Origin: an uncultured Bacteroidia bacterium
GTDB taxonomy: Bacteria; Bacteroidota; Bacteroidia; Bacteroidales; F082
Length of the DNA stretch: 64,000 nucleotides
Direction: 5' to 3'
Assembly (NCBI GenBank): GCA_902802535.1
Contig: CADCML010000011.1
Span: 19,285 to 83,284, forward strand
The position numbers and the translations under genes are program-made. This document shows, in pieces, positions 17,461-62,304 of the stretch. A model generated the notes under the pieces. The model had not been told where the DNA came from and did no database searches. It worked only from the letters and a program-made list of their open reading frames with translations. Positions within the stretch are counted from its first letter, which is position 1; the number at the start of each line of letters is the position of its first letter.

Positions 17461-17562
17461 TTTTATTCCTCTAAACCTTGGTAAAAAATCGAAATTTAGA
17501 GAAATAAAACACTTTAATTCTCTGAATGCGATATTTTTTGTACCTTTGCAGAGAAATAAAAC
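17461..17562. repeat. Two tandem inverted-repeat units over the promoter of the AAA ATPase at 17572
   Basis: Unit 1 pairs TTTTATTCCTCTAAA (17461-17475) with TTTAGAGAAATAAAA (17495-17509), 14 of 15 complementary. Unit 2 pairs TTTAATTCTCTGAA (17513-17526) with AGAGAAATAAAAC (17550-17562). The motif AGAGAAATAAAAC repeats at 17498 and 17550, a 52-base period. The -7 box lies in the loop of unit 2 and the start codon is 10 bases after the array, so this is placed like an operator. Confidence 0.65.
17541..17548 (+). promoter_or_regulatory. -7 promoter box of AAA ATPase gene
   Basis: TACCTTTG, 23 bases before the ATG at 17572, inside the inverted-repeat array. Confidence 0.6.
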
Positions 17563-17571
17563 CGATATGGC

Positions 17572-19002
17572 ATGAAAAACATTATTGGAAGAAAAAAGGA
17601 AATTGAAGAATTGGAACGACTGTACAACGCTGAAAATGCAGAGTTTGTAGCTGTTTATGGTCGGAGACGTGTAGGCAAGACTTATTTGATAAAGGAAGTT
17701 TTCAAGGACAGATTTGCCTTTTGGCATACTGGATTGTCTCCTTATGACCATGATAAGAAATTTCTGCTTCGTGACCAGTTGCAAGCGTTTTTGTATTCGC
17801 TTCAAGACTTTGGATATGAAGGTCATGCATGTCCCCAATCTTGGCTCGAAGCCTTTAGACTATTGGAGAAACTGCTTGCATCTAAAGATGATGGAAGTCG
17901 GCAAGTGGTCTTCATCGACGAGTTGCCGTGGATGGACACAGCGCGGTCGAGGTTCATCTCTGCTTTTGAGCATTTCTGGAATGGTTGGGCCTCGAAGCGT
18001 GACAATGTTTTGCTGATTGTTTGCGGGTCGGCAACCTCTTGGATGGAAGACAACCTTATTAATAATAAGGGTGGCCTTTACAACAGACTGACTCGTGAGA
18101 TGAAGCTCAGCCCATTCACTTTGGCGGAGTGTGAGGCGTATTTCCGCAGCAAGGAAATCAGTGTGAGCCGTTACGATGTGGCACAAGTTTACATGGTTTT
18201 TGGTGGCATTCCGCATTACTTGAGCTTATTTGAGAAAGGTTATAGTATGGCACAAAACATAGACCTCCTGTTGTTTGATGGAAATGCTAAACTGAAAAAC
18301 GAATTCGACCGATTGTTTGGGTCGTTGTTCAAGAACGCCGACGACCACAAGAAAGTCATTCGTTTGCTGGCTGGAAGGCGAAAAGGTTACACACGCAAGG
18401 AAATCCTTGAACTCACAGCCATTAAAGACGGCGGTGGTGCGAGCGAAATTCTCAAAGGCTTGAAAGAGAGCGATTTCATCATGTCTTATTATCCATTCGG
18501 TGATCGAAAGGCCGAGCATTATCGACTGACCGACCATTTTTGTATGGCTTATCTTCAATTCCTTGACGGCAAGGACAAGCCGGACCCTCAGTTTTGGCAA
18601 AAGAACAATTCCTCGCCGCGCCTAAACACATGGCGCGGCTTCGCCTTTGAGGAACTTTGTTTCGCTCATGTCGCCCAGATCAAGCAGAAACTGGGAATAG
18701 CCAGTGTAAGTACGACCGAATCTTCTTGGGTAGTGGAATCGAATGAGAGAAAACATCAAATAGATTTACTCATCGATAGGGCTGATAATGTGATAAATCT
18801 TTGTGAAATAAAGTTTTACGGCAAACCTTTCTCCATTGATGCAAAATATGGCGTTGAATTGCGGGAACGGATGCAAACCTTGATGGACAAAGTACCGCGG
18901 AAGAAAAGCATCCACTTGACATTGATAGCCGCCTTTGGATTGAAATCAAACGAAAACAGCGGGCAAGTACAGAGCATAGTCAGTCTTGATGATTTGTTTT
19001 AA
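17572..19002 (+). CDS. AAA/STAND-type ATPase with C-terminal nuclease-like domain (ATPase_2 + DUF234)
   Basis: A 476-residue cytosolic protein. N-terminal archaeal-type ATPase domain with Walker A GRRRVGKT (30-37), Walker B VVFIDELPWMD (about 109-119) and a sensor-like LLIVCGSATSWM. A winged-helix-like middle (about 265-330, GYTRKEILELTAIKDGGGASEILKGL) is followed by a DUF234/PD-(D/E)XK-type end: QIDLLIDR...LCEIKFY (about 398-417) supplies D and E-x-K. Families of this build are widespread and multicopy in Bacteroidota and archaea; their role is unknown. It is monocistronic. A C-terminal relic of a close paralogue lies at 24570-24680, and two more distant relatives at 24996 and 61105. Private promoter repeats suggest specific, perhaps auto-regulated, expression. 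Confidence 0.85.
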   Translation: MKNIIGRKKEIEELERLYNAENAEFVAVYGRRRVGKTYLIKEVFKDRFAFWHTGLSPYDHDKKFLLRDQLQAFLYSLQDFGYEGHACPQSWLEAFRLLEKLLASKDDGSRQVVFIDELPWMDTARSRFISAFEHFWNGWASKRDNVLLIVCGSATSWMEDNLINNKGGLYNRLTREMKLSPFTLAECEAYFRSKEISVSRYDVAQVYMVFGGIPHYLSLFEKGYSMAQNIDLLLFDGNAKLKNEFDRLFGSLFKNADDHKKVIRLLAGRRKGYTRKEILELTAIKDGGGASEILKGLKESDFIMSYYPFGDRKAEHYRLTDHFCMAYLQFLDGKDKPDPQFWQKNNSSPRLNTWRGFAFEELCFAHVAQIKQKLGIASVSTTESSWVVESNERKHQIDLLIDRADNVINLCEIKFYGKPFSIDAKYGVELRERMQTLMDKVPRKKSIHLTLIAAFGLKSNENSGQVQSIVSLDDLF

Positions 19003-19051
19003 TTTGGCAATGTTTTTTTGAAATAGTTTTCTCTTTTGGGGATAAAATTTT

Positions 19052-19059
19052 TACTTTTG
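19052..19059 (+). promoter_or_regulatory. -7 promoter box of PEGA protein operon
   Basis: TACTTTTG, 29 bases before the ATG at 19089. Confidence 0.55.
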
Positions 19060-19088
19060 CAACACTATTCATTGAAAACAAAGCCATC

Positions 19089-20696
19089 ATGATGAAGAAA
19101 ACATGCTTTCTTTTCCTTTTGCTGTTATGTGGCGTGGTCGCCATCGGACAAGACTTTGAAATCGTCAGTGTTGAGTCTTTGCCCGCTGATATGTCGGCAA
19201 GGGAGGAGATGAAGACCGACCACAACGACCGCCAATGTGCTTTACTTCGTGTGGCCACACAAAACATTGCGCCCAACCAACGTGAAGGTTTCAGCTTTGT
19301 CCCAGATTTAGGCTCCGAAGTGGTGGAGCGTGCAACTCGTGACGGTGAAATCTGGCTTTGGGTCTCACCTGGGCTGAAATACCTCCGTATCAAACATCGT
19401 GATTGGGGACAATATGAACTTCGTCTTCCTGATTATGTCACTCGTGTTGAGGCGTTGCATACCTATAAGGTAACAATTAAAGGAACATTGTCGTTGATCA
19501 TACAAGAGCAAAACAACTCATCTCCTACGCAACAATATTTAGTCTTTCAACTATCACCAACCAACGCCATGCTTGAAGTGGATGGCCAATTATGGGAAGT
19601 TGGCCCAGATGGTACAGCTATGAAATTTGTTAACTTTGGTACCTATTCATACCGAGTCCAAGCACCAAATTATTTACCTGAAACAGGCAAGGTTACTGTA
19701 GATGACCCAAATAATACCAAAACAGAAGTCGTAAGATTAAACCCCGACTTTGTGGAAGTGACCCTCAAAATGGATGCGGATGCCGAAATCTGGGTGAATA
19801 ACGAGAAGAAAGGTACACGGACATGGACGGGGTCGTTAGGCAAAGGCACTTATAAGATTGAATGTAAGCAAGAAGGACACGAAACCTCAGTGATTTCAAA
19901 GGAAATCACCGCTGAGATGAACGGACAGACCATCATTTTGCCAGCACCGAAACCCAATTATGGCTCGTTGAATGTAGAAAGTACACCAATTGGAGCTACT
20001 ATCTATATTGATGGGAAGGAAGTTGGGGAAACGCCGAGGTCGATTAATGAAATAATGGTTGGTAAACACGAAATCAGACTGACCAAAGAAGGCTTCGTTG
20101 CATATACGGAAACTATCAATATCGCAAAGGATGAACGCAAGCAAATAAAAGCAACTCTGAAGAGTGATGGTAGTGTTGTGAAGCCGCAACAACCCATGAC
20201 TCCAAAGAAAGAAAGTAGTGTCTTCTTTGTGATGGCCAATGCTGCTTATTCTATCGCTCCGCAAACCTCGTTTGGGCTAACGGTGGGCTCTGCAAAGAAA
20301 TTAGGCTGGTATGCCAGCTTGGGCAGCAATTTCAGTTTTAAAAGTGCAGAATTTGAGTGTGATGGGACAGGAACCATTAGCGGGATTTCGTCTGAGTATT
20401 CCTATTCAGGTAACAAGTCCACTTCGCGTTTGGGGGCTACAGCAGGTTTGGTGCTCAGGATAAGTGATCCGATATACGCTTACATGGGTGGCGGTTATGG
20501 TTTCCGAAACGTGTTTTGGGAACTTGAAAACGGCAGCTGGTCAAAATGTACCGACGATTCATACCAAGGAATTGCTATTGATGCTGGTCTTATGTTGCAT
20601 TTCGATGGATTCGGACTCTCATTGGGTGTGCAGACTATTGGAGTGAAGTATTTGGAAGCAAAGATTGGCATTGGTTATACATTAAAAAAGAGATAA
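19089..20696 (+). CDS. Secreted PEGA-domain protein with C-terminal barrel-like region
   Basis: A 535-residue exported protein (signal peptide MMKKTCFLFLLLLCGVVAIGQ; an ATG one codon later is equally possible). Residues about 145-357 hold up to three PEGA-type repeats; the third is clearest (GSLNVESTPIGATIYIDGKEVGETPRSINEIMVGKHEIRL in pattern, about 292-335). PEGA domains are small beta modules of surface proteins. The end (about 375-535) alternates aromatic and glycine-rich strands (YSIAPQTSFGLTVGSA, YAYMGGGYGFRNVFWE, GIGYTLKKR) and is probably a small outer-membrane beta-barrel. It is 3 bases from the InlB-repeat/FISUMP lipoprotein, so the two probably form an operon and may act together at the surface. 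Confidence 0.75.
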   Translation: MMKKTCFLFLLLLCGVVAIGQDFEIVSVESLPADMSAREEMKTDHNDRQCALLRVATQNIAPNQREGFSFVPDLGSEVVERATRDGEIWLWVSPGLKYLRIKHRDWGQYELRLPDYVTRVEALHTYKVTIKGTLSLIIQEQNNSSPTQQYLVFQLSPTNAMLEVDGQLWEVGPDGTAMKFVNFGTYSYRVQAPNYLPETGKVTVDDPNNTKTEVVRLNPDFVEVTLKMDADAEIWVNNEKKGTRTWTGSLGKGTYKIECKQEGHETSVISKEITAEMNGQTIILPAPKPNYGSLNVESTPIGATIYIDGKEVGETPRSINEIMVGKHEIRLTKEGFVAYTETINIAKDERKQIKATLKSDGSVVKPQQPMTPKKESSVFFVMANAAYSIAPQTSFGLTVGSAKKLGWYASLGSNFSFKSAEFECDGTGTISGISSEYSYSGNKSTSRLGATAGLVLRISDPIYAYMGGGYGFRNVFWELENGSWSKCTDDSYQGIAIDAGLMLHFDGFGLSLGVQTIGVKYLEAKIGIGYTLKKR

Positions 20697-20699
20697 ATC

Positions 20700-22550
20700 A
20701 TGAAAACGCAGAATATACTGCTCATAGCACTTTTGGTGTTATTAACAGGTTTGACTACTTGCAAGAAAGACCACGACATTCCGACAGGGAAGGTGTTTAA
20801 TTCAGAATCTGGTTTGGATAGTTTAATTATCAGTGTTTCTGCCAATCCAAACGATGGCGGTCAAGTATATGGAGGAGGGACTTACCAAAAGGGACAAGAA
20901 TGTACAGTGATTGCTTCTCCCAACGAGGGTTATGCTTTTGCTAATTGGAAAGAGAATGACAGTATTGTTGCAGAGGGTAAACTATTTCGTTTCACGGTGA
21001 CCAGTAACCGAACTTTGGTGGCAAATTTTGTACAACAAGAGCCTCAGAACTATACCATTAGTGTTTCAGCCAATCCTAGTGACGGAGGCACAATAAACGG
21101 AAGTGGAACATATCAAAGTGGGCAGACTTGTATGGTAACAGCTTCGGCTAATGAAGGATACATTTTTACTAATTGGACAGAGAATGGAACTCAAGTTTCG
21201 ACAAGTACGGCTTATTCGTTTACAGTAAATGCTGACAGAGCTTTAGTGGCCAACTTTTCTGTCAGTACAGGGAGTTACACCATTACAGCCGTGTCTAGTC
21301 CGATATACGGTGGAGTAATAAATGGTGCTGGCACTTATACCCAAGGACAAACCTGTACATTGACAGCTATTTCACATGAAGGCTATACTTTCACCAATTG
21401 GACAGAGAACGGCACCCAAGTTTCAGACGAAGTCCGTTACTCTTTTACGGTGACAAGCAATCGGACTTTGGTAGCACACTTTACCGCTAATCCACAAAAT
21501 TACGACATCAATGTTTCGGCAGACCCAAGCAATGGTGGCACGGTAAGTGGCGGTGGCACCTACCAGCAAGGACAATCCTGTACTGTGATAGCCACAGCCA
21601 ATACAGGATATACCTTCACGAACTGGACGGAGAATGGTAGTGTGGTTTCCAACAGTGCCAGCTACACCTTCACGGTGAATGGCAACCGCAATTTGGTGGC
21701 ACAATTCCAGCAGCAATCTTACACTATAAGCATTTCTGCCAATCCTTCAAGTGGCGGTAGCGTGAGCGGTGGCGGCACATATAATTATGGCCAATCTTGC
21801 ACGGTACACGCCACGGCCAACAGCAACTACACCTTCTCCAACTGGACGGAGAATAGCAATGTGGTTTCCACCAATGCCAATTATACCTTTACGGTAAATA
21901 GTAACAGAACTTTGGTGGCCAATTTCAATTACAATGGCGGCGGAACTCATGAGTATGTCGACCTCGGCCTGCCGAGCGGCCTACTATGGGCCACTTGCAA
22001 CATAGGAGCGGACTCGCCCGAAGACTATGGCGACTACTTCGCCTGGGGTGAGACTCAGCCGAAAAGCACTTACGACTGGAGCACATACCAGTATTGTATG
22101 GGCAACATGAATACGCTGACCAAGTACTGCAACCATGCTAGCTATGGCTACAACGGCTTTACCGACGACCTTACAGTGTTGGAAGCATGCGATGATGTGG
22201 CCACAGCCCGATGGGGCAGCGGCTGGCGTATGCCAACCGCAGAAGAATGGGAGGAACTCTACAACAACACGGCCGTCACATGGACACAGCAGAACGGCGT
22301 GAACGGCAGACTGTTCACCGCAACAAACGGCAACAGTCTTTTCTTGCCCGCTGCAGGCTTCCGCGGTGAAAGCAGTCTCTACTGCGCAGGAAGCAACGGC
22401 CTCTACTGGTCGAGTTCGCTCAGCACGCTCTACACGAGCAGTGCGTGGTACTTCGGCTTCGGTTCGGGCAATTACAGTATGAGCATGAACTACACTAATC
22501 GCTGCGACGGTCGATCTGTCCGCGCAGTACGCACAACACGAGAAAATTAG
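20700..22550 (+). CDS. Lipoprotein with five InlB-type B-repeats and a FISUMP domain
   Basis: A 616-residue predicted surface lipoprotein (lipobox LTTC, Cys21). Five tandem repeats of about 73-76 residues (about 43-410) each follow the pattern SANPxxGG..xGxGTYxxGQ.CTVxAxxNxGYxFxNWxENG...YxFTVxxNRxLVAxF, the divergent InlB B-repeat family. The last 200 residues are a FISUMP (Fibrobacter succinogenes major paralogous) domain: EYVDLGLPSGLLWATCNIGA, YFAWGE, WRMPTAEEWEEL and GLYWSS. This build occurs in Bacteroidota surface proteins of unknown binding target. It is co-transcribed with the PEGA gene. The FISUMP part is GC-richer than the repeats, which suggests domain shuffling. Confidence 0.85.
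   Translation: MKTQNILLIALLVLLTGLTTCKKDHDIPTGKVFNSESGLDSLIISVSANPNDGGQVYGGGTYQKGQECTVIASPNEGYAFANWKENDSIVAEGKLFRFTVTSNRTLVANFVQQEPQNYTISVSANPSDGGTINGSGTYQSGQTCMVTASANEGYIFTNWTENGTQVSTSTAYSFTVNADRALVANFSVSTGSYTITAVSSPIYGGVINGAGTYTQGQTCTLTAISHEGYTFTNWTENGTQVSDEVRYSFTVTSNRTLVAHFTANPQNYDINVSADPSNGGTVSGGGTYQQGQSCTVIATANTGYTFTNWTENGSVVSNSASYTFTVNGNRNLVAQFQQQSYTISISANPSSGGSVSGGGTYNYGQSCTVHATANSNYTFSNWTENSNVVSTNANYTFTVNSNRTLVANFNYNGGGTHEYVDLGLPSGLLWATCNIGADSPEDYGDYFAWGETQPKSTYDWSTYQYCMGNMNTLTKYCNHASYGYNGFTDDLTVLEACDDVATARWGSGWRMPTAEEWEELYNNTAVTWTQQNGVNGRLFTATNGNSLFLPAAGFRGESSLYCAGSNGLYWSSSLSTLYTSSAWYFGFGSGNYSMSMNYTNRCDGRSVRAVRTTREN
20828..21930 (+). repeat. Five tandem ~220-base coding repeats
   Basis: The InlB-type repeats are recognisable in DNA as well as protein, beginning near 20828, 21055, 21280, 21508 and 21725. 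Copies 4 and 5 are closest to each other (for example GGACGGAGAATAG and GGCGGTGGCAC-type words recur), consistent with recent duplication. Confidence 0.7.
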
Positions 22551-22742
22551 AAAAAACAGAACAAGGAAGAAACCGAAAATTCTGAAGAGAGTAGGCGTGA
22601 ATTTAAAACTTATAATAATGGAAATAATAGAAGTTAAAATGACGAAGAAATGATGGAAAAACTGTGCAAATAACTAGATTATGAGTGTTGGACTGATACA
22701 GAGGGAGCTATTCATAAGAAATAATACAAATTATCCGTCACT
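22551..22742. other. AT-rich intergenic region
   Basis: No coding sequence, hairpin or clear TAnnTTTG box is visible. It must hold the promoter of the AlbA_2-DUF2971 gene unless that gene is read through from upstream. Confidence 0.4.
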
Positions 22743-24080
22743 ATGGCAAAATTTGAGAGAATAGAAGATTTGAAAATCGCTAATGGGATTATCCCATTCC
22801 CTGAGAATGAGCAATTGGAGTATAAACCATCAATATCTGTTGATAATATTCCTCAGTTTTTGAGAGCAATGGTTGGACTGTCTAATACCGAAGGCGGCTG
22901 TCTAGTAATTGGGGTCAGAGAAATGAGAAATGGTGGTGCTGTTGTGACAGGTTTGGATAGTCAAGGTCTTCAAAGATTTGAACAATTCGAGAATGCTTGT
23001 CAAAGACTCTTTAAAAATGAATTTATCGGTGAACTTAAAGCTTCATTTCAAACAAAGCTTATCAATGGGAAAACAGTTGCTTTTGTTTTCGTTCAGAAAA
23101 GTAAAGAAAAGAACATCAGAATTACAGACGAGGCTATTTTAATCAGAAGACAAAATGGAATTGTAGTTGAAAAAGTCAAAGACAATTTACAACGATATAA
23201 AAGATTCGAAATTGAAAAGTACACAAGATTCAATGATTATGATGTTTTTGACAACACGCTCCCATCAAAGGCAAGGTACATGCTTTCGGAACAGAAAGCT
23301 GGATCAAATGTTTTGTACAAATATATGACATTGGATGCCTTCATTCAGTGCATTGAAAATGGAAGCATAATGTTTCAAGAGCCCAGTGGATGGAATGACC
23401 AATTTGAAAAACGGTTTTATAATGCCAATTATAAGAATGTGACAAGGCGTGTTGAAGATTACCCAAAAGTATTTGCTACTTGTTTGACTGAAACAAAAGA
23501 CAGTGAAGCACCATGGAAGGTTTATTCAAGCCAAAACAAAGGGTTGGGAAGATGCATTCAGATTGAGATAAATTTGGAAAAATTCAGACAACAGCTCTAT
23601 GCATTTGCGTCAAGCAATGGATTTGATGTATATGAGGGAAAAGTTTTATATGGGTTGGACGAAACAGAAATCATGAACCTACATACCAAAAAATCTCCGT
23701 TTTTCAAGTTGTTTTTCAACACATTTAATCTCAATCATTTCCTGTGGCTACTTTTTATCAAAAGACCTGCATATAAATATGAAGATGAGGTGAGGTTTTT
23801 CTTGGTTCCACGTGTGACTGAATCAAGGAATAAAAGGAGACCCGAACGAAAATATGTACCGGTTTCTTGGGGAGACTTAATCCGAGAAGTTCGAATAGAC
23901 GAAAATTGTTCAGACTCTGAAAAACTAGTCATTAATAGAATATGTGAGGAGAATGGCATCCAATTGGTAGATTCCCAATGCGATCCATACAGAGATAAAG
24001 GGAGAATGAATATTTACATTGAGTGTTTTAACATTGATAATATGAATGGCAAAAAGACAATTACAATCAGCAAGCCATAG
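22743..24080 (+). CDS. AlbA_2 (Schlafen-like) - DUF2971 fusion protein
   Basis: A 445-residue cytosolic protein. Residues about 20-145 form an AlbA_2 domain (NEQLEYKPSISVDNIPQFLRAMVGLSNTEGGCLVIGV in pattern; E-x-K and the GG-x-x-x-I-G-V strand). Residues about 190-420 are a DUF2971 domain: LYKYMTLDAFIQCIENGSIMF, P.GWNDQFE, FATCLTETKDSEAPWKVYS, and YEDEVRFFL. AlbA_2 is a nucleic-acid-binding domain found in Schlafens and many bacterial accessory proteins; DUF2971 is unassigned but recurrent in genomic islands. The gene is much more AT-rich than core genes nearby and stands alone, which fits acquisition. A defence or stress role is only a suggestion. Confidence 0.75.
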   Translation: MAKFERIEDLKIANGIIPFPENEQLEYKPSISVDNIPQFLRAMVGLSNTEGGCLVIGVREMRNGGAVVTGLDSQGLQRFEQFENACQRLFKNEFIGELKASFQTKLINGKTVAFVFVQKSKEKNIRITDEAILIRRQNGIVVEKVKDNLQRYKRFEIEKYTRFNDYDVFDNTLPSKARYMLSEQKAGSNVLYKYMTLDAFIQCIENGSIMFQEPSGWNDQFEKRFYNANYKNVTRRVEDYPKVFATCLTETKDSEAPWKVYSSQNKGLGRCIQIEINLEKFRQQLYAFASSNGFDVYEGKVLYGLDETEIMNLHTKKSPFFKLFFNTFNLNHFLWLLFIKRPAYKYEDEVRFFLVPRVTESRNKRRPERKYVPVSWGDLIREVRIDENCSDSEKLVINRICEENGIQLVDSQCDPYRDKGRMNIYIECFNIDNMNGKKTITISKP

Positions 24081-24569: not shown

Positions 24570-24680
24570 GCATCGGAAAAAGCCCTCCAACTAACGATGA
24601 TCACCACCTACGGCGTGGAAAGGAACATGTACAGCAACCGCGTACAGTCGGAAGTGCTGCTTGATGACCTTTTTGGGTGA
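24570..24680 (+). pseudogene. C-terminal relic of an AAA ATPase of the 17572-19002 family
   Basis: The frame ending at the TGA at 24678 reads SEKALQLTMITTYGV then ERNMYSNRVQSEVLLDDLFG. The intact ATPase at 17572-19002 ends KKSIHLTLIAAFGLKSNENS then GQVQSIVSLDDLF, an alignment without gaps over about 33 residues (LT.I...G...N..S..VQS.V.LDDLF). Everything upstream of this fragment is missing. Confidence 0.7.
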
Positions 24681-24737
24681 TTTGTGTTTAGGATGCTTAT
24701 TTCAATAAGTAACTGTTCAAAATTAAACTGCAATATC

Positions 24738-24817
24738 TTTTGACTTCGTGACACGGGACTTCGAGACTTCGGGACAAGCAAATGCCTCGTAGTCTCGTAG
24801 TCCCGCAGCCTCGCGTC
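24738..24817. repeat. Imperfect palindromic repeat (CGGGACTTCGAGACTTCG type)
   Basis: The left arm has CGGGACTTCGAGACTTCG and the right arm, on the other strand, CGGGACTACGAGACTACG. The arms are separated by a short loop. It looks like a further class of dispersed palindrome in this gene-free stretch; no second copy is seen in this window. Confidence 0.5.
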
Positions 24818-24867
24818 CAATATGTAAACTAATTTTGCTCATCTACTTATGCAGAAACGACAATTCC

Positions 24868-24976
24868 GGAATTTTGTGATATTTTCCTTTGTTTGGTTCG
24901 GAATTTTGTGATATTTTTGCCGAAAAATATCGGAATTTTGTGATTTTTGGGCTAAAAATAGTAGGAATTCTGTGAT
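24868..24976 (+). repeat. Four-copy, 32-base-period repeat array before the DUF4143 ATPase
   Basis: GGAATTTTGTGAT begins at 24868, 24900 and 24932, and GGAATTCTGTGAT at 24964: exactly 32 bases apart each time. Between copies 2 and 3 lies a perfect dyad ATATTTTT-GCCG-AAAAATAT (24911-24930) that includes the -7 box. The start codon at 24996 is again 32 bases after the last copy. Equal spacing near three helical turns puts all copies on one face of the DNA. Confidence 0.85.
24912..24919 (+). promoter_or_regulatory. -7 promoter box within the repeat array
   Basis: TATTTTTG, with TTTG at 24888-24891 as a possible -33 element 20 bases upstream. Repeat copies 3 and 4 would then lie in the 5' leader. 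Confidence 0.5.
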
Positions 24977-24995
24977 TCATAAAACACAAACAGTT

Positions 24996-26339
24996 ATGAA
25001 CCAAATACTTAAAAGAAAAATCGATGGCTTTTTGATGCAATGGAAGCAAAATCCGCAAAGGTTGCCGCTCATCATCAAAGGTTCGAGGCAAGTGGGAAAG
25101 ACCTTCTCGATAGAACAATTCGCCAAAAACTACGGCAACTTCATCGAAATCAACTTCGTGACCGAGCCGCAATACAAAACCATTTTTGACACGGGATTCA
25201 AAACCGACGACATTCTGAAACAAATCAGTTTCGTCAATCCCGAGGCAAAGTTTGTGGCCAACGACACGCTCATCCTCTTCGACGAGATGCAAGCCTGCCC
25301 CAACTGCGCCACAAGCCTGAAATTCTTCAAGTTGGATGGGCGGTTTGATGTCATTTGTTCGGGTTCGCTCATGGGCATCAACTATCAGGAAATTGAGTCG
25401 AACAGCGTGGGTTACAAGGAAGAATATGAGATGCAGTCGCTTGATTTCGAGGAATTTCTGTGGGCAAAAGGCTATTCCGAAACCCAAATCGAAGACCTTT
25501 ACGCCCACATCGCCGAACAAAAGCCCTTTTCACAACTGGAAATGGATGTCATGTTTGGGCATTTTTTGGATTACATGCTCGTGGGGGGAATGCCTGCCAT
25601 CGTGAGCGACTTCGTCAGTCAAAACAACTTTTCCGGCATTCTGAAAAAGCAACAAATGCTGCTCCTCGACTATGAGGAGGACATCACCAAATATGCCATC
25701 GGCCTCGACAAAGGGAAGATCAAGAATATCTACCGCAACATTCCCAATTTCCTCGCTATGGAGAACAAGAAATTCCAAATCTCAAAGGTGGCAAAAAACG
25801 CAAGATCAAGGGAATACATCGGAACGGTCGATTGGTTGGCTGACGCGGGCATCATTAATGTTTGCTATAACCTCAACCTGCCCGAACTGCCTATGAAAGG
25901 CAACGCCAATGCCAACGAATACAAGATTTATTTCCGCGACACGGGCTTGCTCATCGCCTCGCTCGACGACGAATCGCAGACCGACTTGCGCCACAACCGC
26001 AACTTCAACACATACAAGGGTGCGCTTTACGAAAACATCGTGGCCGACATGTTCGTCAAGGAGGGTTATCCGTTGTATTATTTCAGGAACGAGAAATCGA
26101 CCATCGAAATGGATTTCTTCATCCGTGATGCCGAGTCGCTGATTCCCGTTGAGGTGAAGGCCAAAGACAATGCCACGGCCTCGCTCAACAAACTGATAAC
26201 CGACACAAAATACAAGGACATTCGCTACGGCATCAAACTCTGTTACAAGAACATAGGATTCAACGGAAAATTCTACACCTTGCCTTATTTCGCAACATTC
26301 CTGCTGAAACGCTGGATTAATGAACGAATCGCAAAGTAA
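24996..26339 (+). CDS. AAA family ATPase with DUF4143 C-terminal domain
   Basis: A 447-residue cytosolic protein starting at the ATG at 24996 (MNQILKRKIDGFLMQWKQ). An upstream in-frame GTG at 24972 would fall inside the fourth repeat, so it is not preferred. AAA_14-type ATPase domain: Walker A GSRQVGKT (29-36), Walker B TLILFDEMQ (about 91-99), and CSGSLMG as sensor. DUF4143 follows, with the nuclease-like signature EMDFFIRD and PVEVKAK (D, E-x-K) near the end. These ATPases are common, multicopy and poorly understood in Bacteroidota. The four-copy repeat array over the promoter is its most unusual feature. Codon use and base composition are closer to core genes than the preceding AT-rich region. 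Confidence 0.87.
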   Translation: MNQILKRKIDGFLMQWKQNPQRLPLIIKGSRQVGKTFSIEQFAKNYGNFIEINFVTEPQYKTIFDTGFKTDDILKQISFVNPEAKFVANDTLILFDEMQACPNCATSLKFFKLDGRFDVICSGSLMGINYQEIESNSVGYKEEYEMQSLDFEEFLWAKGYSETQIEDLYAHIAEQKPFSQLEMDVMFGHFLDYMLVGGMPAIVSDFVSQNNFSGILKKQQMLLLDYEEDITKYAIGLDKGKIKNIYRNIPNFLAMENKKFQISKVAKNARSREYIGTVDWLADAGIINVCYNLNLPELPMKGNANANEYKIYFRDTGLLIASLDDESQTDLRHNRNFNTYKGALYENIVADMFVKEGYPLYYFRNEKSTIEMDFFIRDAESLIPVEVKAKDNATASLNKLITDTKYKDIRYGIKLCYKNIGFNGKFYTLPYFATFLLKRWINERIAK

Positions 26340-56031: not shown

Positions 56032-56047
56032 GTGTTTGGTTTATTGT

Positions 56048-56055
56048 TATCTTTG
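56048..56055 (+). promoter_or_regulatory. -7 promoter box before the 141-residue protein
   Basis: TATCTTTG only 5 bases before the ATG at 56061, so the transcript would be leaderless or nearly so. Confidence 0.45.
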
Positions 56056-56060
56056 CCGGC

Positions 56061-56486
56061 ATGAAACTCAATTGTCTCATAGGATTGCAGTTACTGTTGG
56101 CCTTGGCGAGATGTTTGAAGAACAATTGTTGGCCGAGCCTGCCATTACTTGATTGCATTGACGGCTGGAAAGAAATGGATGTTGACACTACTTATCTGAC
56201 ATCTGATGTGGTTATGGCAAACTTCGACAGATTGAGAATCCAATTTGGAAATGGCAACATCGGAATTAATGTCGACAACGGAAACGCTCCCATTTCAATG
56301 ATTGTCAATCCAATAATCAAAGAGAATGGAGCATTAGAGTTCCCCTATCCTGAATATCCGAGTGGCGGATTCAATAGTTTTATGGGAAACTACATCGGCA
56401 CAGATACCATTGTCATCAGCATAAAATACGGCTACTTGATGGGAAGCTATAACAAATATCAAATTGTAGGCGTAAAAACTCGTTGA
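56061..56486 (+). CDS. Small exported protein of unknown function
   Basis: A 141-residue frame with a hydrophobic N-terminus (MKLNCLIGLQLLLALARC), possibly a signal or weak lipobox. The rest is beta-rich with DVVMANFDRLRIQFGNGNIGIN and a KYGYLMGSYNKYQIVGV end. No family recognised. A promoter box directly abuts the start. Immediately downstream lies a relic of a T9SS sorting domain in another frame, so this could itself be a decaying surface protein. Confidence 0.5.
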   Translation: MKLNCLIGLQLLLALARCLKNNCWPSLPLLDCIDGWKEMDVDTTYLTSDVVMANFDRLRIQFGNGNIGINVDNGNAPISMIVNPIIKENGALEFPYPEYPSGGFNSFMGNYIGTDTIVISIKYGYLMGSYNKYQIVGVKTR

Positions 56487-56495
56487 TTATCCAAT

Positions 56496-56585
56496 ATGTG
56501 TGTACAACTATCTGCTGGCACTTACACGATGCGGGTTGCTTTGGAAGACGGGAAGGTGTTTTCGGATAAGGTGATGAAGGAATAA
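56496..56585 (+). pseudogene. Relic of a T9SS C-terminal sorting domain
   Basis: The frame reads MCVQLSAGTYTMRV then ALEDGKVFSDKVMKE and stops at 56583-56585. The LSAGTYTMRV...SDKVMKE pattern is the end of a type A sorting domain. No signal peptide or body is attached. Confidence 0.6.
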
Positions 56586-56586
56586 T

Positions 56587-57150
56587 CTACCCCTTCAAAA
56601 TCATCTTTTCCAGACGATTATACCAATCCTCGCCAAACTTGCGGATCATCGGCTCGCGAAGGAATTTCCACAAGGGAATGCCTTCGCGTTCGCCTTTGCG
56701 CTTAGCGGGCACGCAGACGCTCCATTCGTGGTAGAGGATGTGGGTGAAGCCGTCCTTTTCCACCAAGCGAATAGGATAAAGGTGGCATGAAATCGGTTTC
56801 CAGAAGTCGCATTTGCCTTCCAAATAGGCCTTTTCGATGGCGCAGAGGGCGGTGCCGTTCTCATGAAAATAGACAAAAGCACATTCCTCGCCATTCACCA
56901 AAGGCGTGACGAGTTCGCCCGTTTCGTCATAATCGTAAACGTCATTTTCTTCCACCACCTTGATGCCTTCGGGGCGCATATACGGTTTGATAGCTTCGAG
57001 GTTATCTTCAATTTGCTCTATTTCAGCGGCTTCCAATGGCGCGCCCGCATCGCCGGCCACACAGCACCAGCCTTTGCAGCGCGGCAGGCAGCAGCAGAAT
57101 TGGGCGTTCAGGAATTCGTCAGTGACGATGATGTTGTCTAAAATAATCAT
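56587..57150 (-). CDS. DUF3109 family protein
   Basis: A 187-residue cytosolic protein rich in conserved Cys: [42 protein letters not shown], and [16 protein letters not shown]. The layout matches DUF3109 (related to YkgJ-type putative metal or Fe-S binding proteins) and its length is usual. The function is unknown. It is divergent from argF with the two promoters overlapping in 80 bases; its own -7 box lies 5 bases from the start codon. Confidence 0.9.
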
Positions 57151-57155
57151 GTTTG

Positions 57156-57163
57156 CAAAGATA
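57156..57163 (-). promoter_or_regulatory. -7 promoter box of the DUF3109 gene
   Basis: TATCTTTG on the minus strand, 5 bases before the ATG at 57150. Confidence 0.45.
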
Positions 57164-57176
57164 AAGGAAAAAACCT

Positions 57177-57184
57177 TACCTTTG
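57177..57184 (+). promoter_or_regulatory. -7 promoter box of argF
   Basis: TACCTTTG, 47 bases before the ATG at 57232. Confidence 0.6.
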
Positions 57185-57231
57185 CCGCGAATTTTAAATC
57201 ATTAAATTTTAAATCTTTAAATCATAAAGAA

Positions 57232-58233
57232 ATGGCATTTAACCTCAGAAACAGAAACTTCCTGAAGTTGTTGGACTTCACTCCGGAAGAGATTAAGTTT
57301 TTCCTGAAGCTGGCCGCCGACCTCAAGGCCGCCAAGTATGCAGGCACCGAACAACCTCGTTTGACGGGCAAGAACATCGCCCTGATTTTCGAAAAGACCT
57401 CAACCCGCACCCGTTGCGCTTTTGAAGTCGCCGCCAAGGACCAAGGTGCTCACGTCACCTATCTCGGCCCCTCTGGTTCACAAATCGGCATCAAGGAATC
57501 GATGAGAGACACCGCCCGCGTGCTGGGTCGCATGTTCGACGGCATCGAGTATCGTGGCTTCGGTCAGGATATCGTTGAAGAACTGGCCAAATACGCCGGC
57601 GTGCCGGTATGGAACGGCCTCACCAACGAGTTCCACCCCACCCAAATCCTCGCCGACTTCCTCACCATGATGGAACACAGCGACAAGCCCCTCAACCAAG
57701 TGACCTTCGCCTACTGCGGCGACGCCCGTTTCAACATGGGCAACTCGCTGATGGTGGGTGGCGCCAAGATGGGCATGGATGTCCGCATCGTGGCTCCCAA
57801 GGAACTGCAACCCAACAAAGAACTCATTGACACCTGCAAGAAGATCGCCAAGGAAACGGGTGCCAAGGTGACCGTGACCGACGATGTGAAAAAGGGCGTC
57901 AAGGGCTGCGACTTCCTTTACACCGACGTGTGGGTATCGATGGGCGAACCCGCCGAGGTCTGGAAGCAGCGCATCGACCTGCTCATGCCTTATCAGGTGA
58001 ACAAGGAGATGATGAAGGCTACGGGCAACCCGAACTGCAAGTTCATGCACTGCCTGCCGGCTTACCACAACCTCGAGACCCAAGTGGGCCGCGACGTCAA
58101 CAAGCAATTCGGCTTGAATGGCATCGAGGTCACTGAGGACGTGTTCGAGAGCACGAACAGCATCGTCTTCGACGAGGCTGAGAACCGTATGCACACCATC
58201 AAGGCCGTCATGGTGGCCACGTTGGGTGACTGA
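57232..58233 (+). CDS. argF: Ornithine carbamoyltransferase
   Basis: A 333-residue cytosolic enzyme that interconverts ornithine plus carbamoyl phosphate and citrulline. Carbamoyl-phosphate site [32 protein letters not shown]; ornithine loop DVWVSMGEP; and HCLPAYHN with the catalytic Cys. SMG distinguishes it from aspartate carbamoyltransferase and from the acetylornithine/succinylornithine variants. The length fits both anabolic ArgF and catabolic ArcB; no arc or other arg gene is adjacent to settle the direction. Own promoter and terminator. Confidence 0.95.
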
Positions 58234-58258
58234 TCTTAGTCCAAAAGCATCAAAAATG

Positions 58259-58290
58259 AAAGGAACCCCGAAATTCGAGGTTCCTTTCTT
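58259..58290. terminator. Bidirectional terminator between argF and the Omp28-like gene
   Basis: AAAGGAACC / GGTTCCTTT stem with a 11-base loop, followed by a T-rich stretch on the plus side and by TTTC-ATTTTTG on the minus side. Confidence 0.7.
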
Positions 58291-58313
58291 GTTTTCAGGA
58301 AACAGCTTCAGCA

Positions 58314-60671
58314 TCAGTGGCTGACCACCACACGCTGGTTGCTGATAGTGCCGTCGCTCTGGCGGATGTTGAAGAAATACACGCCGTTGCTGTATTGGCT
58401 CAGGTTCACGTTGACAATCATGCTGTTGGCGGGGATGGTTTCCACCAAAACACCCATCACGTTGTAAACCATCACACTCTCGATGTTCCTGGCCGATTCG
58501 ATGCGCACTTGGTTGTTGGCAGGATTCGGATAGACCTTAGCCGTCGATGAAAGCTCGGTGACAGTCAGCAGTTCGCCGTCAACGGTAACATTAAACACCA
58601 CTTCTCCACCATCAGATTCCACCTTAACAAAGGTTTCAGCCACACTTCTGCCAGCAGGAGCATTGGGACCAATCATGAAATGGAATTCTTCTCCTTCAGC
58701 AAGCGTATAAGGCAGGGCGTTCATGGGCTCTATGACCACATATTGGTCACCTGTAGGATTAGCTTCGGTGATGGCGGTAACCTCGATAGGCGTATGCGAA
58801 GCGAAATTGGCGTTGGTCACATAGACATCGGCTTCGGGTTCTTCGACTGTCAGATAAACGTAAGGCGAGCCATAGTTCACCAATCCCATGTCTTGCAAAG
58901 TGCTTGACGTAGTGGCCAGCACCTTCACCGAGGTCATGCCACCTTCATACAAAGCGACCACGCCCACCACATAGAACACATCCGGTTGACTTTGGAAACT
59001 ATACGAATTTTCAGTAATATTCTCAGCCACCAGCTCATTGTTGACATAAACATTATATCCGATAGGATTGCCGTTGGCAGGGGCATCCCACACGGCGTAC
59101 ATCGTACCCTTCATCGGAGCTTCATCCATCACAGTGAGGTTCTCAACAGGATAAGGATGCACATCAGTGTATTCGTAAGCAAAATGACTGTTGAAGGTCT
59201 CCTTGGTGTTGTAGTTCTGCACCCAAATGGAAACCTCAAGGTCGCTCATCTCCTCGACGTGCGTTCCCGACATGTCTTGGGTGAACTCCAAGTGCTGGTT
59301 TTCGCAAGAAGTGAAATTGACAGAAGTGCCTTGTGCATCGGGCAACATCTTCATGAAGACATGGTGGAATGAAGTTTCGCCGTTGCCGCCCACATTGTTG
59401 TGTGTCTCTTTTTCGTTCACGGAGATGAACACACGGGCCTCGGCATCAATGTAAGGCATCACATCGGCCTTGACGGAGATGGTGTTGCCGCTCACCGAGA
59501 AGGAACCACGGACTTCCATGAAGGCCGTTCTTTCGGCGTGTTGATCGAAAACGGCTTGTGTAATAGCGGCATAGCCTTGGTCTTCACCATCGAGGAAGCA
59601 CTGAGGAACAGCATTGACACCATAATAGTTGCGGCGCACGCCACCTTCTTCGGTGTAGTACGGGTCGCCGTTGCCAGGCCAGTTCATCTGGTACTTGGTG
59701 TAGGTGAAACGGCCAGGGTTGTTGTTGCAGAAGTTCAGCATGGTGGTGTTAACGTTTACGCAAGGTCCGCAGGTTGAGGACGAGAAGTGCTCAATCATCG
59801 GGATCTTTTCGGCAGCGCCGATGGCCACGGAAACGCCTTTTTCATACGTGTTGTTGGCAGTCACATCGTCTTCCTGTCCATTGACCAGGTCGATGCTGTA
59901 GGCCACATTGTAGCTGCCAGGAACCAGCATGGTCGAAGTGGTGAAATTCAAGGTCTGGGTTCCCAACGAAGGGATGTTGACGGTGAAAGTCTCGGTGACA
60001 GGCTCCAAGCCTTCCACAGCGTATGTGGCTTGCACTGAGGTCACGGTGGTGACACCATAGTTAAACACGTTGATGCCAAACGAAGTCTCGCCGCTGCCGA
60101 CGAAATCGTTAAGCGTGACGGATTCAAGACCGAGGTCGAGGTTTTCGAGGGTGAAGGCCGAGATGTCGTCGAAGAACCAGTCGTTGATGTTGTAGCTGCT
60201 GCCATTGAAGAAGATGCAGAACTGCACATTGGCCTGACCCATGTCGGAGGTGCTGATTTCTTGGCTCACCGACCACGCACCACTCGTGCTGTAGCTTTGA
60301 GTCCAAGCCTGATTCCAAGTGGTACCGCCATCGGATGTGGTAGCCACACCGATGGTGTTGGCACCTGAGTAGTTGTCAAGCGCGTGCTTGAACGAGAACA
60401 CGAGGCTGTTGATACCCGTCAGGTCAACAGCAGGAGACACGAGTCGCGACATACCGTTGAATTGGGGGCTCCAAGCGAGATGCATCTCATTGGCTTGTCC
60501 ACCAGCGTTGTTGGTAGCCGAAACCGACCAGTTGCTTTCATGTGCGTCAATTGACCAGCCAGCGGGCATTGAAGCACCATCAAATGATTCCTGCAGCAAA
60601 ACCACGCGGTTTTGTGCCATGCTTGCCGTCGCAAGAAGCAACGCGAAAGCGAAAAGTAAGAATTTCTTCAT
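58314..60671 (-). CDS. T9SS-secreted protein with Omp28-like thioredoxin-fold domain
   Basis: A 785-residue exported protein: signal peptide 1-19 (ends SMA-Q), a jelly-roll/MAM-like domain about 20-175 (ESFDGASMPAGWSID...DDISAF), a CARDB-like Ig domain about 180-285, then the Omp28-like domain about 287-500 with a redox-type CxxC (HFSSSTCGPCVNVNTTML) and NAVPQCFLDG. An Fn3-like module and a C-terminal type A T9SS domain (VYPNPANNQVRIES..NGVYFFNIRQSDG) follow. The CxxC suggests disulfide chemistry or metal binding at the surface, but Omp28-type proteins lack an assigned reaction. Confidence 0.85.
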   Translation of the reverse strand: MKKFLLFAFALLLATASMAQNRVVLLQESFDGASMPAGWSIDAHESNWSVSATNNAGGQANEMHLAWSPQFNGMSRLVSPAVDLTGINSLVFSFKHALDNYSGANTIGVATTSDGGTTWNQAWTQSYSTSGAWSVSQEISTSDMGQANVQFCIFFNGSSYNINDWFFDDISAFTLENLDLGLESVTLNDFVGSGETSFGINVFNYGVTTVTSVQATYAVEGLEPVTETFTVNIPSLGTQTLNFTTSTMLVPGSYNVAYSIDLVNGQEDDVTANNTYEKGVSVAIGAAEKIPMIEHFSSSTCGPCVNVNTTMLNFCNNNPGRFTYTKYQMNWPGNGDPYYTEEGGVRRNYYGVNAVPQCFLDGEDQGYAAITQAVFDQHAERTAFMEVRGSFSVSGNTISVKADVMPYIDAEARVFISVNEKETHNNVGGNGETSFHHVFMKMLPDAQGTSVNFTSCENQHLEFTQDMSGTHVEEMSDLEVSIWVQNYNTKETFNSHFAYEYTDVHPYPVENLTVMDEAPMKGTMYAVWDAPANGNPIGYNVYVNNELVAENITENSYSFQSQPDVFYVVGVVALYEGGMTSVKVLATTSSTLQDMGLVNYGSPYVYLTVEEPEADVYVTNANFASHTPIEVTAITEANPTGDQYVVIEPMNALPYTLAEGEEFHFMIGPNAPAGRSVAETFVKVESDGGEVVFNVTVDGELLTVTELSSTAKVYPNPANNQVRIESARNIESVMVYNVMGVLVETIPANSMIVNVNLSQYSNGVYFFNIRQSDGTISNQRVVVSH

Positions 60672-60717
60672 AGTGAATTGATTTAAGATGATTAGTATTA
60701 ATAAATTAATTTCGGTG

Positions 60718-60725
60718 CAAAAATA
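60718..60725 (-). promoter_or_regulatory. -7 promoter box of the Omp28-like gene
   Basis: TATTTTTG on the minus strand, 46 bases before the ATG at 60671. Confidence 0.55.
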
Positions 60726-60795
60726 AGAACATTTTTGAATGTTCAGTCTGTTACGGGAAAAAAAGCCTTATTTTGACGAAAATAAATCACAAAGT

Positions 60796-60920
60796 GTAGT
60801 CTACAACGCACTCGGTGAGTTATTACGTACCGTCCCAGGCAACAACACACTCAAATTGGCACAAACAGGTAAGCATTCGCAGGAAATTTTCGCTCTTAAT
60901 ATTGATAACAAAGTGATTGA
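60796..60920 (+). pseudogene. Relic of a T9SS sorting domain
   Basis: The plus frame contains VVYNALGELLRTVPG then NNTLKLAQTG, the 'VYNxxGxLxxT...L..L..G' pattern of type A sorting domains, and then diverges (KHSQEIFALNIDNKVIEYT). No upstream body and no promoter are attached. Confidence 0.45.
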
Positions 60921-60984
60921 ATATACTTCCGTTCCAAACTTTTTGTTGGAAAAGTCCAAGAATTTTGCTTGTTTTGGGCAAAAG

Positions 60985-61068
60985 TGTTGTCTATAAACAA
61001 CAGTTTTTATTAAAAAATGATGTCTATAATCAACATTTTTTGTAGAAAAGTGTTGGATGTAACCAACA
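60985..61068 (+). repeat. Three-copy, 33-base-period dyad array before the AAA ATPase at 61105
   Basis: TGTTGTCTATAAACAACA (60985), TGATGTCTATAATCAACA (61018) and TGTTGGATGTAACCAACA (61051): 18-base dyads spaced exactly 33 bases, each followed by a T run. The third copy lies between the -33 TTG (61053-61055) and the -7 box (61075-61082), a classic repressor position. Confidence 0.85.
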
Positions 61069-61074
61069 TTTTTG

Positions 61075-61082
61075 TATTTTTG
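61075..61082 (+). promoter_or_regulatory. -7 promoter box of the AAA ATPase at 61105
   Basis: TATTTTTG with TTG at 61053-61055 as -33 element (19-base spacer), 22 bases before the ATG. Confidence 0.6.
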
Positions 61083-61104
61083 CAGGCAAAATGAAGATAC
61101 TGCC

Positions 61105-62304
61105 ATGGAAACACTATTCGTAAAACACGATCGACTCATCGCCAAAACCTCTTTGGACATCGTCAGGGAAATGATGAACCGTGTGCATTGGAATGCCCAA
61201 CTGCTGTCCATCCAAGGAGCTAAAGGCGTGGGCAAATCGACGCTGCTCAAACAATTCATCAAAATGAATTACCAACCTGGCGACCGAAAAGTGCTGTACT
61301 GCTCCGCTGACACCATCGATTTTTCCCGCCGAACTTTGGTTGATCTTGCCGGAGAATTTGTCATGAACGGCGGAGAAAGACTTATTATCGACGAAATCCA
61401 TAAATATGAAGGATGGAGCCGCGAAATCAAAGAAATTTACGACCTTTATCCCGAATTGAAAATGATTATCAGCGGTTCGTCGCTGTTGAGCCTATTGGCT
61501 GGTGACGCAGACTTGTCGCGCCGATGCATCAAATACACCATGTCGGGTTTGTCGTTCCGCGAAGCGTTGAGATTTTACGAAAACCTTGAATTTCCCGTCT
61601 GGACTTTGGAAGACATTCTCACGCGTCCTTACGAATTATGGCAAACTGTCGCTGCTCAATGCAAACCTATTGAGCAGTTCAAGAAATACCTTCAATACGG
61701 CTATTATCCCTTCTTCTTGGAAGGACAACAAGATTATTTTACGAGAATCGAGCAGGTGGTCAACTATGTCGTGGAAACGGAACTTCCCATGATCTGCAAG
61801 GTCGATGTGGCCTACACCCGAAAACTCAAGGCCTTGATTTCCATCATTGCTGAAAGTGTGCCTTACGAAGTGAATGCCAATCGATTAGCCGCAGCCATCG
61901 AGATAGGCAGAGATACCGTTGTCGGCTATCTGAAAAACATGGGCGATGCCAAACTGCTGAACTTGCTCTATTCCGACAAGAAAAGTATCGGCAAACTCAC
62001 CAAACCCGACAAAGTTTATCTCGAAAACACGAATTTGCTCTATGCGTTAAGTCCTACTTCGGTCGAAATCGGGACGGTGCGTGAGACTTTTGCCATTACC
62101 CATCTCTCTGAAAACCATCTTGTTGAATACGGAAAAGACAAAGGCGACTTTAAAGTGGATGACAAGTATCATTTTGAAATCGGTGGCAAGGACAAAGGCT
62201 TCAACCAAATTGCGGATTTGCCCGATTCATACATTTTTGCTGATGACATAGAATCGCCCGTTGGTGCAAAACTGCCTCTTTGGATGCTGGGGTTTTTGTA
62301 TTGA
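61105..62304 (+). CDS. AAA family ATPase (AAA_14) with short nuclease-like C-terminus
   Basis: A 399-residue cytosolic protein from the ATG at 61105 (METLFVKHDRLIAKT), which lies properly downstream of the promoter box; an in-frame TTG at 61072 would precede it. Walker A GAKGVGKS (38-45), Walker B RLIIDEIHKY (about 91-100), sensor SGSSLLSLL. A winged-helix-like stretch (VPYEVNANRLAAAIEIGRDTVVGYL) and a C-terminal nuclease-like motif FEIGGKDKGF follow. It belongs to the same broad group as the ATPases at 17572 and 24996 but is not close to either. Cellular role unknown; the private dyad array suggests tight, probably autogenous control. Confidence 0.87.
   Translation: METLFVKHDRLIAKTSLDIVREMMNRVHWNAQLLSIQGAKGVGKSTLLKQFIKMNYQPGDRKVLYCSADTIDFSRRTLVDLAGEFVMNGGERLIIDEIHKYEGWSREIKEIYDLYPELKMIISGSSLLSLLAGDADLSRRCIKYTMSGLSFREALRFYENLEFPVWTLEDILTRPYELWQTVAAQCKPIEQFKKYLQYGYYPFFLEGQQDYFTRIEQVVNYVVETELPMICKVDVAYTRKLKALISIIAESVPYEVNANRLAAAIEIGRDTVVGYLKNMGDAKLLNLLYSDKKSIGKLTKPDKVYLENTNLLYALSPTSVEIGTVRETFAITHLSENHLVEYGKDKGDFKVDDKYHFEIGGKDKGFNQIADLPDSYIFADDIESPVGAKLPLWMLGFLY

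Follow-up and report, generated by a model that had tools for sequence, protein, structure and literature searches.

Paralogue-private promoter repeats, probable autorepressor operators of PDC-S01 and PDC-S27 candidate defence ATPase-nucleases in a Bacteroidia genome

The window, a 64,000-nucleotide stretch of DNA from an uncultured Bacteroidia bacterium (contig region 19285-83284 of a 3.7-Mb draft genome, 85% complete and 6.3% contaminated), carries three detected genes, named here by their start positions 17572, 24996 and 61105, for AAA ATPases with a predicted PD-(D/E)XK nuclease end. Each is preceded by repeats with a motif of its own. From sequence comparison, we consider these repeats to be, with fair probability, autorepressor operators of the PDC-S01/PDC-S27 candidate defence ATPase-nucleases, read by each protein's own winged helix. 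Repeat spacing goes with protein subfamily although the motifs differ: 32-33 bp for 24996 and 61105, 52-53 bp with alternating half-sites for 17572, and 14 bp in a third subfamily.

The original prediction that every intact nuclease-fused AAA ATPase of the window has a promoter array is confirmed at all three genes, more weakly at 17572 (Table 1). Upstream of 24996, copies of CGGAATTTTGTGAT start at 24867, 24899 and 24931, with a degenerate fourth at 24963; the direct-repeat score of 24.0 (z 14.7) is reached by 0 of 100 dinucleotide shuffles. The palindromic units of 61105, starting at 60984, 61017 and 61050, score 28.5 (z 17.6, dinucleotide shuffles); this gene was scored from a later in-frame ATG, the array still lying within the 200 bases read. 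Tandem Repeats Finder calls a period of 32 upstream of 24996 and of 33 upstream of 61105, and no array upstream of 17572, where the repeats are modest (direct p 0.02, inverted p 0.01, dinucleotide shuffles) and comprise AGAGAAATAAAAC half-sites at 17460(-), 17498(+), 17511(-) and 17550(+). Half-sites are also seen by eye upstream of two relatives, L254 and L255, 94% and 93% identical to 17572. The similar architecture proposed for the three arrays holds for 24996 and 61105 and fails for 17572, with its alternating orientation and other spacing. The -7 elements of all three genes were assigned with the consensus TAnnTTTG.

Across the genome, profile matches number 63 for DUF4143, 41 for ATPase_2 and 87 for AAA_14, the sets overlapping. 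From these, 94 candidate places were picked by hand, setting aside further fragments or domains of genes already included, a scrap at a contig edge (C50) and four larger proteins judged unrelated (C1:22752, C62:13126, C7:22735, C1:75698). Seven of the 94 were left unscored (six pieces lacking a P-loop, one with its upstream region running off the contig) and four were read as non-family (C9:45341, C16:51359 (Ffh-like), C25:7833 (RecA-like) and C28:8847), leaving 83. For each gene, 200 upstream bases were scored against 100 dinucleotide shuffles with a cut-off of p<=0.01. Family starts were set at the ATG nearest 25 residues before the P-loop, or at the first ATG of the frame where the P-loop was missing; the 104 controls, drawn from five 20-kb stretches and the window, were read from the first ATG of the longest frame. 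Direct or inverted repeats precede 72 of 83 family genes and 17 of 104 controls (Fisher 3e-23). Among the controls preceded by a gap of 100 bases or more, 8 of 47 show repeats (Fisher 2e-15 vs family), and direct repeats alone separate 55/83 family genes from 8/104 controls. All three groups contribute, with 45/53 AAA_14/DUF4143, 17/19 long ATPase_2 and 10/11 short ATPase_2 genes.

The best repeat distance is 32-34 in 27 of the 53 AAA_14/DUF4143 genes (65-66 in five, 21-23 in five, other values in ten, none in six), 52-53 in nine of the 19 long ATPase_2 genes (others in five, none in five) and 14 in six of the 11 short ATPase_2 genes (others in three, none in two). A GPKWCGKT-type P-loop is common to three of the genes spaced at 21-23, of which there are five. 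No control gene among the 104 has a best distance of 32, 33, 52 or 53, and one stands at 14, family genes having been read over 220 bases and controls over 200. Testing for helical phase at 10.5 bp gives a strong signal in groups A and L, but the controls lean likewise (R 0.48, p 0.057), so the argument rests instead on the recurring 32-33 and 52-53 distances.

Each motif is largely confined to its own promoter. Over 55 genes, a 14-letter core with at most one mismatch reaches a density of 4.68/kb in the gene's own promoter; the density is 0.0042/kb in the promoters of other family members, 0.0009/kb across 100 kb of control DNA and 0 within the gene's own body. The 24996 motif, again with at most one mismatch, occurs three times in the 3.7-Mb genome, all inside its own array, and we therefore rejected a regulon; the other motifs were compared, for this question, with the 100 kb of control DNA and the family promoters. 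The 61105 palindrome, allowing up to three mismatches, gives nine strand hits genome-wide and its reversed control pattern one. Its own array accounts for three of the nine and an orphan cluster for three more; a paralogue's promoter holds one, and two are scattered. The orphan cluster (C1:149700-149800) holds three 61105-like palindromic units at ~33-bp spacing, lies 3' of a different family gene without a family gene of its own seen alongside, and may be the relic of a lost family copy. Mobile-element ends were rejected as a general reading: the core motif recurs in the 3' flank of 3/55 genes (C74:11930, C56:8261, C67:41283), which is neither general nor nil, and the pooled 3'-flank density of 0.24/kb exceeds that of control DNA owing to those three. 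The idea that incompatibility forces same-genome paralogues apart is unsupported, with means of 10.8 within and 11.5 between genomes (p 0.30; group L pairs at 45-55% identity, no within-genome pair exceeding 55%). Four broken family copies (C45:17879, C12:545, C136:2684, C89:3156) keep repeats, by eye, before the remaining N-terminal part.

Relatives of 24996 at E<=1e-90 were found at 16 places in 10 of 39 other genomes searched, preceded, by eye and with the exception of L116, by arrays with similar spacing and different motifs; one relative, L125, contains one in-frame stop. The best 80 of 557 public-genome loci (53-94% identity), with 12 from IMG/VR, gave a set of 92; the records of the 80 are labelled Bacteroidota, Bacillota, Spirochaetota, Fibrobacter and one archaeon, labels that belong mostly to draft metagenome-assembled genomes and may be wrong. 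The best distance is 32 in 52 of the relatives, 33 in 24, 64-66 in eight, 31 in one and 146 in one, with none in six; 85/92, from several phyla, thus have 31-33 or 64-66 (scored without shuffles). Absence of arrays from most members, which the original prediction named as the outcome that would count against it, is contradicted both by this count and by the 72/83 of the genome. Among 28 relatives of 17572 (own gene, L253, included), the best distance is 52-55 in ten, 63 in two, 74, 84, 85 and 106 in one each, another value in three and none in nine, and an inverted repeat exceeds the score threshold in 26/28 (scored without shuffles). Among 29 relatives of 61105 (own gene, L283, included), it is 33 in 15, 32 in three, another value in four and none in seven. 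In assembling these two sets, L282 gave no gene, L277 was unread and L295 was skipped for too little upstream sequence. More distant named relatives carry spacings of 33 (Collinsella), 66 (Parabacteroides), 32 (Acinetobacter), 32 (Persicobacter), 33 (Runella), 34 (Aliarcobacter), 77 (Fusobacterium, unclear), 54 (Desulfosarcina) and 15 (Rhodothermus); Mesorhizobium has a dyad and Ruminococcus albus two repeat copies, the latter seen by eye only.

In Bacillota orthologues, the arrays often coincide with the core promoter. A repeat copy overlaps the called -35/-10 in 39 of 56, against a mean of 20 and a maximum of 31 for random placement (500 trials); this promoter score credited a TG before the -10, which could favour repeat ends, and removing the credit gives 42/56 (random mean 21, maximum 33). 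A frequent layout has a TTGAAA-like and a TATAAT-like element separated by 17-18 bases, and the last copy abuts the -10 with its TGTGA end. In the genome under study, 68 of the 70 family genes with a motif call have a TAnnTTTG element no more than 260 bases from the start, and repeat copies sit upstream of, on and downstream of it. The Bacillota orthologues thereby display the mark of an autoregulated module, operator-like sites overlapping the gene's own promoter, an appearance expected of an autorepressor operator. The earlier suggestion that the proteins limit their own expression has this overlap as its one line of support, and may hold.

The protein architecture is predicted to be modular. 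In 24996, DUF4143 (PF13635) and AAA_14 (PF13173) both exceed their curated cut-offs, with 112 and 78.9 bits against 28.1 and 27, figures given in that order of the domains. It matches PADLOC model PDLC04786 (PDC-S01) with 492 bits, the PADLOC library supplying no curated cut-off for PDC-S01 models; the fusion of ATPase and PD-(D/E)XK that defines PDC-S01 is seen in Pfam, invariant residues and model. Its AlphaFold2 model, with a predicted local distance difference test (pLDDT) value of 91.1 overall and about 71-82 at residues 251-280, is read as a predicted AAA+ domain, then a winged helix that includes helix 271-283 and strands 287-293/304-313, and lastly PD-(D/E)XK. E346, E371, D373, E386 and K388, which we assign to the PD-(D/E)XK motif, are invariant together with the Walker residues in 47 sequences, 46 of the 90 available relatives having been used in the structure alignment. 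Gene 17572 matches PDLC04984 (PDC-S27) with 648 bits over residues 1-476, its ATPase-PD-(D/E)XK fusion appearing in Pfam, alignment and model; the latter (pLDDT 90.0) contains the helices and strands of both the winged helix and the PD-(D/E)XK core, and E412 is almost invariant in an alignment using 12 of 17 available relatives. For 61105, AAA_14 passes and DUF4143, at 21.2 bits, falls below its curated cut-off; PDLC04787 (PDC-S01) scores 94 bits, and Pfam is the one source for the fusion. A sequence search of solved structures with 24996 returned weak or spurious matches only, and the 17572 profile matches the Pyrococcus Walker ATPase 2qen, TnsC and two winged-helix chains, SloR (249-341) and MJ223 (255-319). 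Foldseek ranks 2qen first for the 24996 and 17572 models (template modelling scores 0.43 and 0.48 by query), followed by archaeal and eukaryotic ORC/Cdc6 and other AAA+ proteins; matches also include Apaf-1, NRC resistosomes and Avs3 for 17572 and Avs5 for 24996.

Table 1. Coordinates of the three family genes, their arrays and predicted domains in the window
Feature	Position	Strand	Basis
17572: ATPase_2-type AAA ATPase with winged helix and PD-(D/E)XK end, 476 aa; PADLOC PDC-S27	17572..19002	+	Pfam, PADLOC, model
Array of 17572: four AGAGAAATAAAAC-like half-sites, alternating orientation, direct period 52; flanks and overlaps promoter	17460..17562	+	
TAnnTTTG -7 element (TACCTTTG) of 17572	17541..17548	+	sequence
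Predicted winged helix of 17572, residues 256-319	18337..18528	+	model and profile match
Predicted PD-(D/E)XK core of 17572, residues 349-414 (D398, E412, K414)	18616..18813	+	model and alignment
24996: AAA_14 and DUF4143 protein, 447 aa; PADLOC PDC-S01	24996..26339	+	Pfam, PADLOC, model
Array of 24996: three CGGAATTTTGTGAT copies and one degenerate copy, period 32	24867..24976	+	
TATTTTTG -7 element of 24996, at 3' end of one repeat copy	24912..24919	+	sequence
Predicted winged helix of 24996, residues 236-313; helix 271-283 holds R272 (codon 25809-25811)	25701..25934	+	model, co-variation
Predicted PD-(D/E)XK core of 24996, residues 343-416 (E346, E371, D373, E386, K388)	26022..26243	+	model, alignment
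61105: AAA_14 and weak DUF4143 protein, 399 aa; weak PDC-S01	61105..62304	+	Pfam, PADLOC
Array of 61105: three palindromic GTGTTGTCTATAAACAACA-like units, period 33	60984..61068	+	
TATTTTTG -7 element of 61105	61075..61082	+	sequence

Co-variation links the repeats to the predicted winged helix. Among 100 orthologues of 24996, the distance between repeat cores rises with that between the proteins (r 0.45), a trend that the spacers do not show (r -0.01), bearing out the expectation that repeat motifs diverge with the protein; an earlier run used 87 of 98 orthologues (selected by chained array, length and locus below L210), and L163 was removed as a twin of L115. Once overall protein distance is partialled out, the strongest column is 272 (0.39) and the next is 246 (0.38); both stand among the top five in 60/60 bootstraps of the 100 orthologues, whereas in the spacer control neither is among the top 15. 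Both residues, R272 and Y246, lie in the predicted winged helix of 24996. Of all 447 columns, 272 is also the one most strongly associated with base four of the TGTG half (84 rows). That base is G in 273/276 copies of R272 genes and in 20/72 copies where the residue differs; counted by gene, G occupies it in every copy of 87/90 R272 genes vs 2/24 non-Arg genes (Fisher 3e-18). The ungapped register misplaces some copies of non-Arg genes, and a flexible register gives 86/90 and 2/24, with the later counts unchanged. Within the F/L246 clade, G is in every copy of 8/10 Arg genes vs 2/24 non-Arg genes (p 1e-4). In two later gene sets, every copy has G in all 17 Arg genes, which is not the case in 10 of 11 non-Arg genes, so that 27/28 agree; these are the 28 scored of 30 fetched, L239 and L351 being left out for lack of a chained array (both TGTG by eye). 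We regard the evidence that the winged helix reads the repeats as good but not conclusive.

Several observations weigh against this interpretation. The R272 rule was first stated as "not G" for non-Arg genes and relaxed to "G not fixed" after the second new set, and the pooled counts contain the set that yielded it. On trees built without the winged-helix columns, residue 272 changed only five or six times, so shared ancestry limits what co-variation can prove; the 3-4 supported independent R272 pairs are never discordant and not significant; over random pairings, the base goes the same way in 3.5 of 4, 2.7 of 3 and 1.8 of 3 pairs and never the opposite. The winged helix is not enriched beyond residues 272 and 246 (five of the top 20 columns, 3.5 expected), and third place goes to column 64, which belongs to the ATPase part. 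Recognition through the C-terminal half, as originally proposed, is accordingly favoured by co-variation at two winged-helix residues and tempered by the few changes of the key one. At the level of arrays, 11/83 family genes have no significant repeat in their 200 upstream bases, the strict 14-letter word gives at least two own hits in just 33 of 55 array genes, 17/56 Bacillota arrays miss the called -35/-10, and there are arrays placed entirely upstream or in the leader. L116, a relative of 24996, has no array by eye in its 144 upstream bases, and a Vibrio relative shows none upstream. Nor does the script find one upstream of four haloarchaeal relatives of 17572 (L320-L323), which by eye share one TCATTATCG-AGTAATCATTAT-like motif just before the start codon that is not private.

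In the proposed mechanism, each gene would form a one-gene module comprising an AAA+/STAND-like ATPase, a winged helix and a PD-(D/E)XK nuclease, with the promoter repeats serving as operators for the gene's own protein. Several protomers would bind side by side through their winged helices, the oligomer setting the spacing at about 3 helical turns in AAA_14/DUF4143 and 5 in ATPase_2 proteins, and the bound protomers would block RNA polymerase, such that the gene represses itself. Winged helix and all repeat copies may drift together and give each paralogue a private address, which would let dozens of copies coexist in one genome without cross-regulation. A part in phage or plasmid defence is possible. 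A broader proposal, in which private arrays throughout a STAND/Orc-like ATPase-nuclease superfamily, itself among the most frequent candidate defence genes of prokaryotes, combine a repressor site with a docking platform where the nuclease senses an intruder and the pairing lets ~80 units coexist as independent circuits, seems to us unlikely, though worth stating.

Were it the main task of the array, bound by its own protein, to anchor or trigger the nuclease (for self-cutting, for copy control of a homing-like kind or as an invader-sensing perch), promoter overlap would be secondary. The invariant nuclease and Walker residues agree with such a role, as do the resemblance of the 17572 fold to STAND immune sensors, the existence of broken copies, the three genes that do have the motif in their 3' flank, and a patchy copy number within one genus (0-38 first-look candidates with the 24996 query), which together with close relatives in several phyla suggests mobility. 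We nevertheless judge it a rather improbable account, given that only those three of 55 genes carry a 3'-flank motif and that Bacillota copies overlap the -35/-10 beyond expectation. A positive loop, in which the protein binds the array and activates its own promoter, would suit the arrays that lie wholly upstream of the -7/-10 element; many copies, however, sit on or downstream of the core promoter, where operators are usually repressive, and we give this reading little credence.

Operators of other host regulators could also occupy promoters, and some of the motifs are dyads like ordinary repressor sites, but dozens of motifs in one genome would require a dedicated regulator for each, genes keep their array type from phylum to phylum, and the motif tracks a winged-helix residue of the protein itself, leaving only a very slim chance for regulators other than the adjacent protein. 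Neutral repeats, arising by slippage or AT-rich low complexity and inherited with the gene, might be expected in AT-rich promoters, and 17/104 controls do show repeats. Yet cores follow the protein and spacers do not, spacing recurs and goes with subfamily, and copies within an array are, by eye, more alike than copies of relatives; neutrality is thus scarcely credible. Autorepression through the protein's own winged helix remains the account we prefer.

The fold matches bring the proteins close to archaeal Orc1/Cdc6, likewise AAA+ plus winged helix (2qby and 2v1u for 24996; 1w5t and 2qby for 17572). Orc1/Cdc6 is not known to have a nuclease domain, and in view of the predicted PD-(D/E)XK the genes were not assigned to that family. 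STAND NTPases (Avs3, Apaf-1, NRC proteins) resemble 17572 in fold; their winged helix is not known to bind the promoter of its own protein. In plasmid iteron/Rep systems and in the C-boxes and C proteins of restriction-modification systems, a DNA-reading protein binds upstream repeats and limits its own expression, and the present arrays, likewise upstream of their own genes, may be analogous. Neither Rep nor C proteins are known to include AAA+/PD-(D/E)XK fusions or dozens of privately addressed paralogues per chromosome. In Haloarcula hispanica, according to the portions of PMC3936714 covered, each Cdc6 recognises origin repeats adjoining its own gene, with several such pairs per genome; those boxes are replication origins, whereas here dozens of copies have promoter arrays.

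PDC-S01 and PDC-S27, both pairing an ATPase with PD-(D/E)XK, are listed as phage-defence candidates in the covered portions of PMC12988326, which place PDC-S01 fourth in frequency among defences across prokaryotes and describe validation as pending for most PDCs; the covered portions of PMC13356809 count 10,358 PDC-S01 in rumen genomes. Those portions of the two papers are silent on arrays, on recognition by a winged helix and on autoregulation. Arrays of operators and genes that repress themselves are already familiar, and as far as our literature search extended, which leaves out the preprint defining PDC-S01/S27, family-wide paralogue-private arrays with subfamily-linked spacing before AAA/STAND-like nucleases appear to be new; the original prediction's view that this regulatory logic is undescribed stands within that scope.

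Further observations concern the neighbourhood and wider range of the family. Next to 24996, at 22743-24080 of the window, lies a SLFN_AlbA_2 protein matching PADLOC PDC-S31 (84 bits), another defence candidate. Within one genus (23 genomes of differing completeness), the 24996 query yields between 0 and 38 first-look candidates in a genome, and the family seems to grow and contract quickly there. Three distant ATPase_2 relatives on IMG/VR contigs (L336, L337 and L338, the last by eye only) carry mutually similar direct repeats of 15 bp, AAATCACGATT-like, a short way upstream of the start codon. In Thermus thermophilus HB27, the pTT27 ATPase gene TT_RS11170 (L358) is preceded by a short dyad, TGAATGA-CTA-TCATTCA, before its ATG (by eye). 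We guess that it may be TT_P0211, the AAA_14/DUF4143 gene with raised RNA in plasmid-bearing cells. A Thermus AAA_14/DUF4143 gene had 6.6-fold more RNA when plasmid and TtAgo were both present (PMC4406477), in the only paper found with the word DUF4143, whose covered portions do not study the protein itself.

A private DNA address before most members indicates which DNA each protein probably sees and makes its regulation directly testable. The paralogues would make up a naturally occurring set of matched proteins and addresses from which winged-helix specificity could be decoded, and the address is a practical marker for finding further members and for asking whether these ATPase-nucleases are immune, selfish or both.

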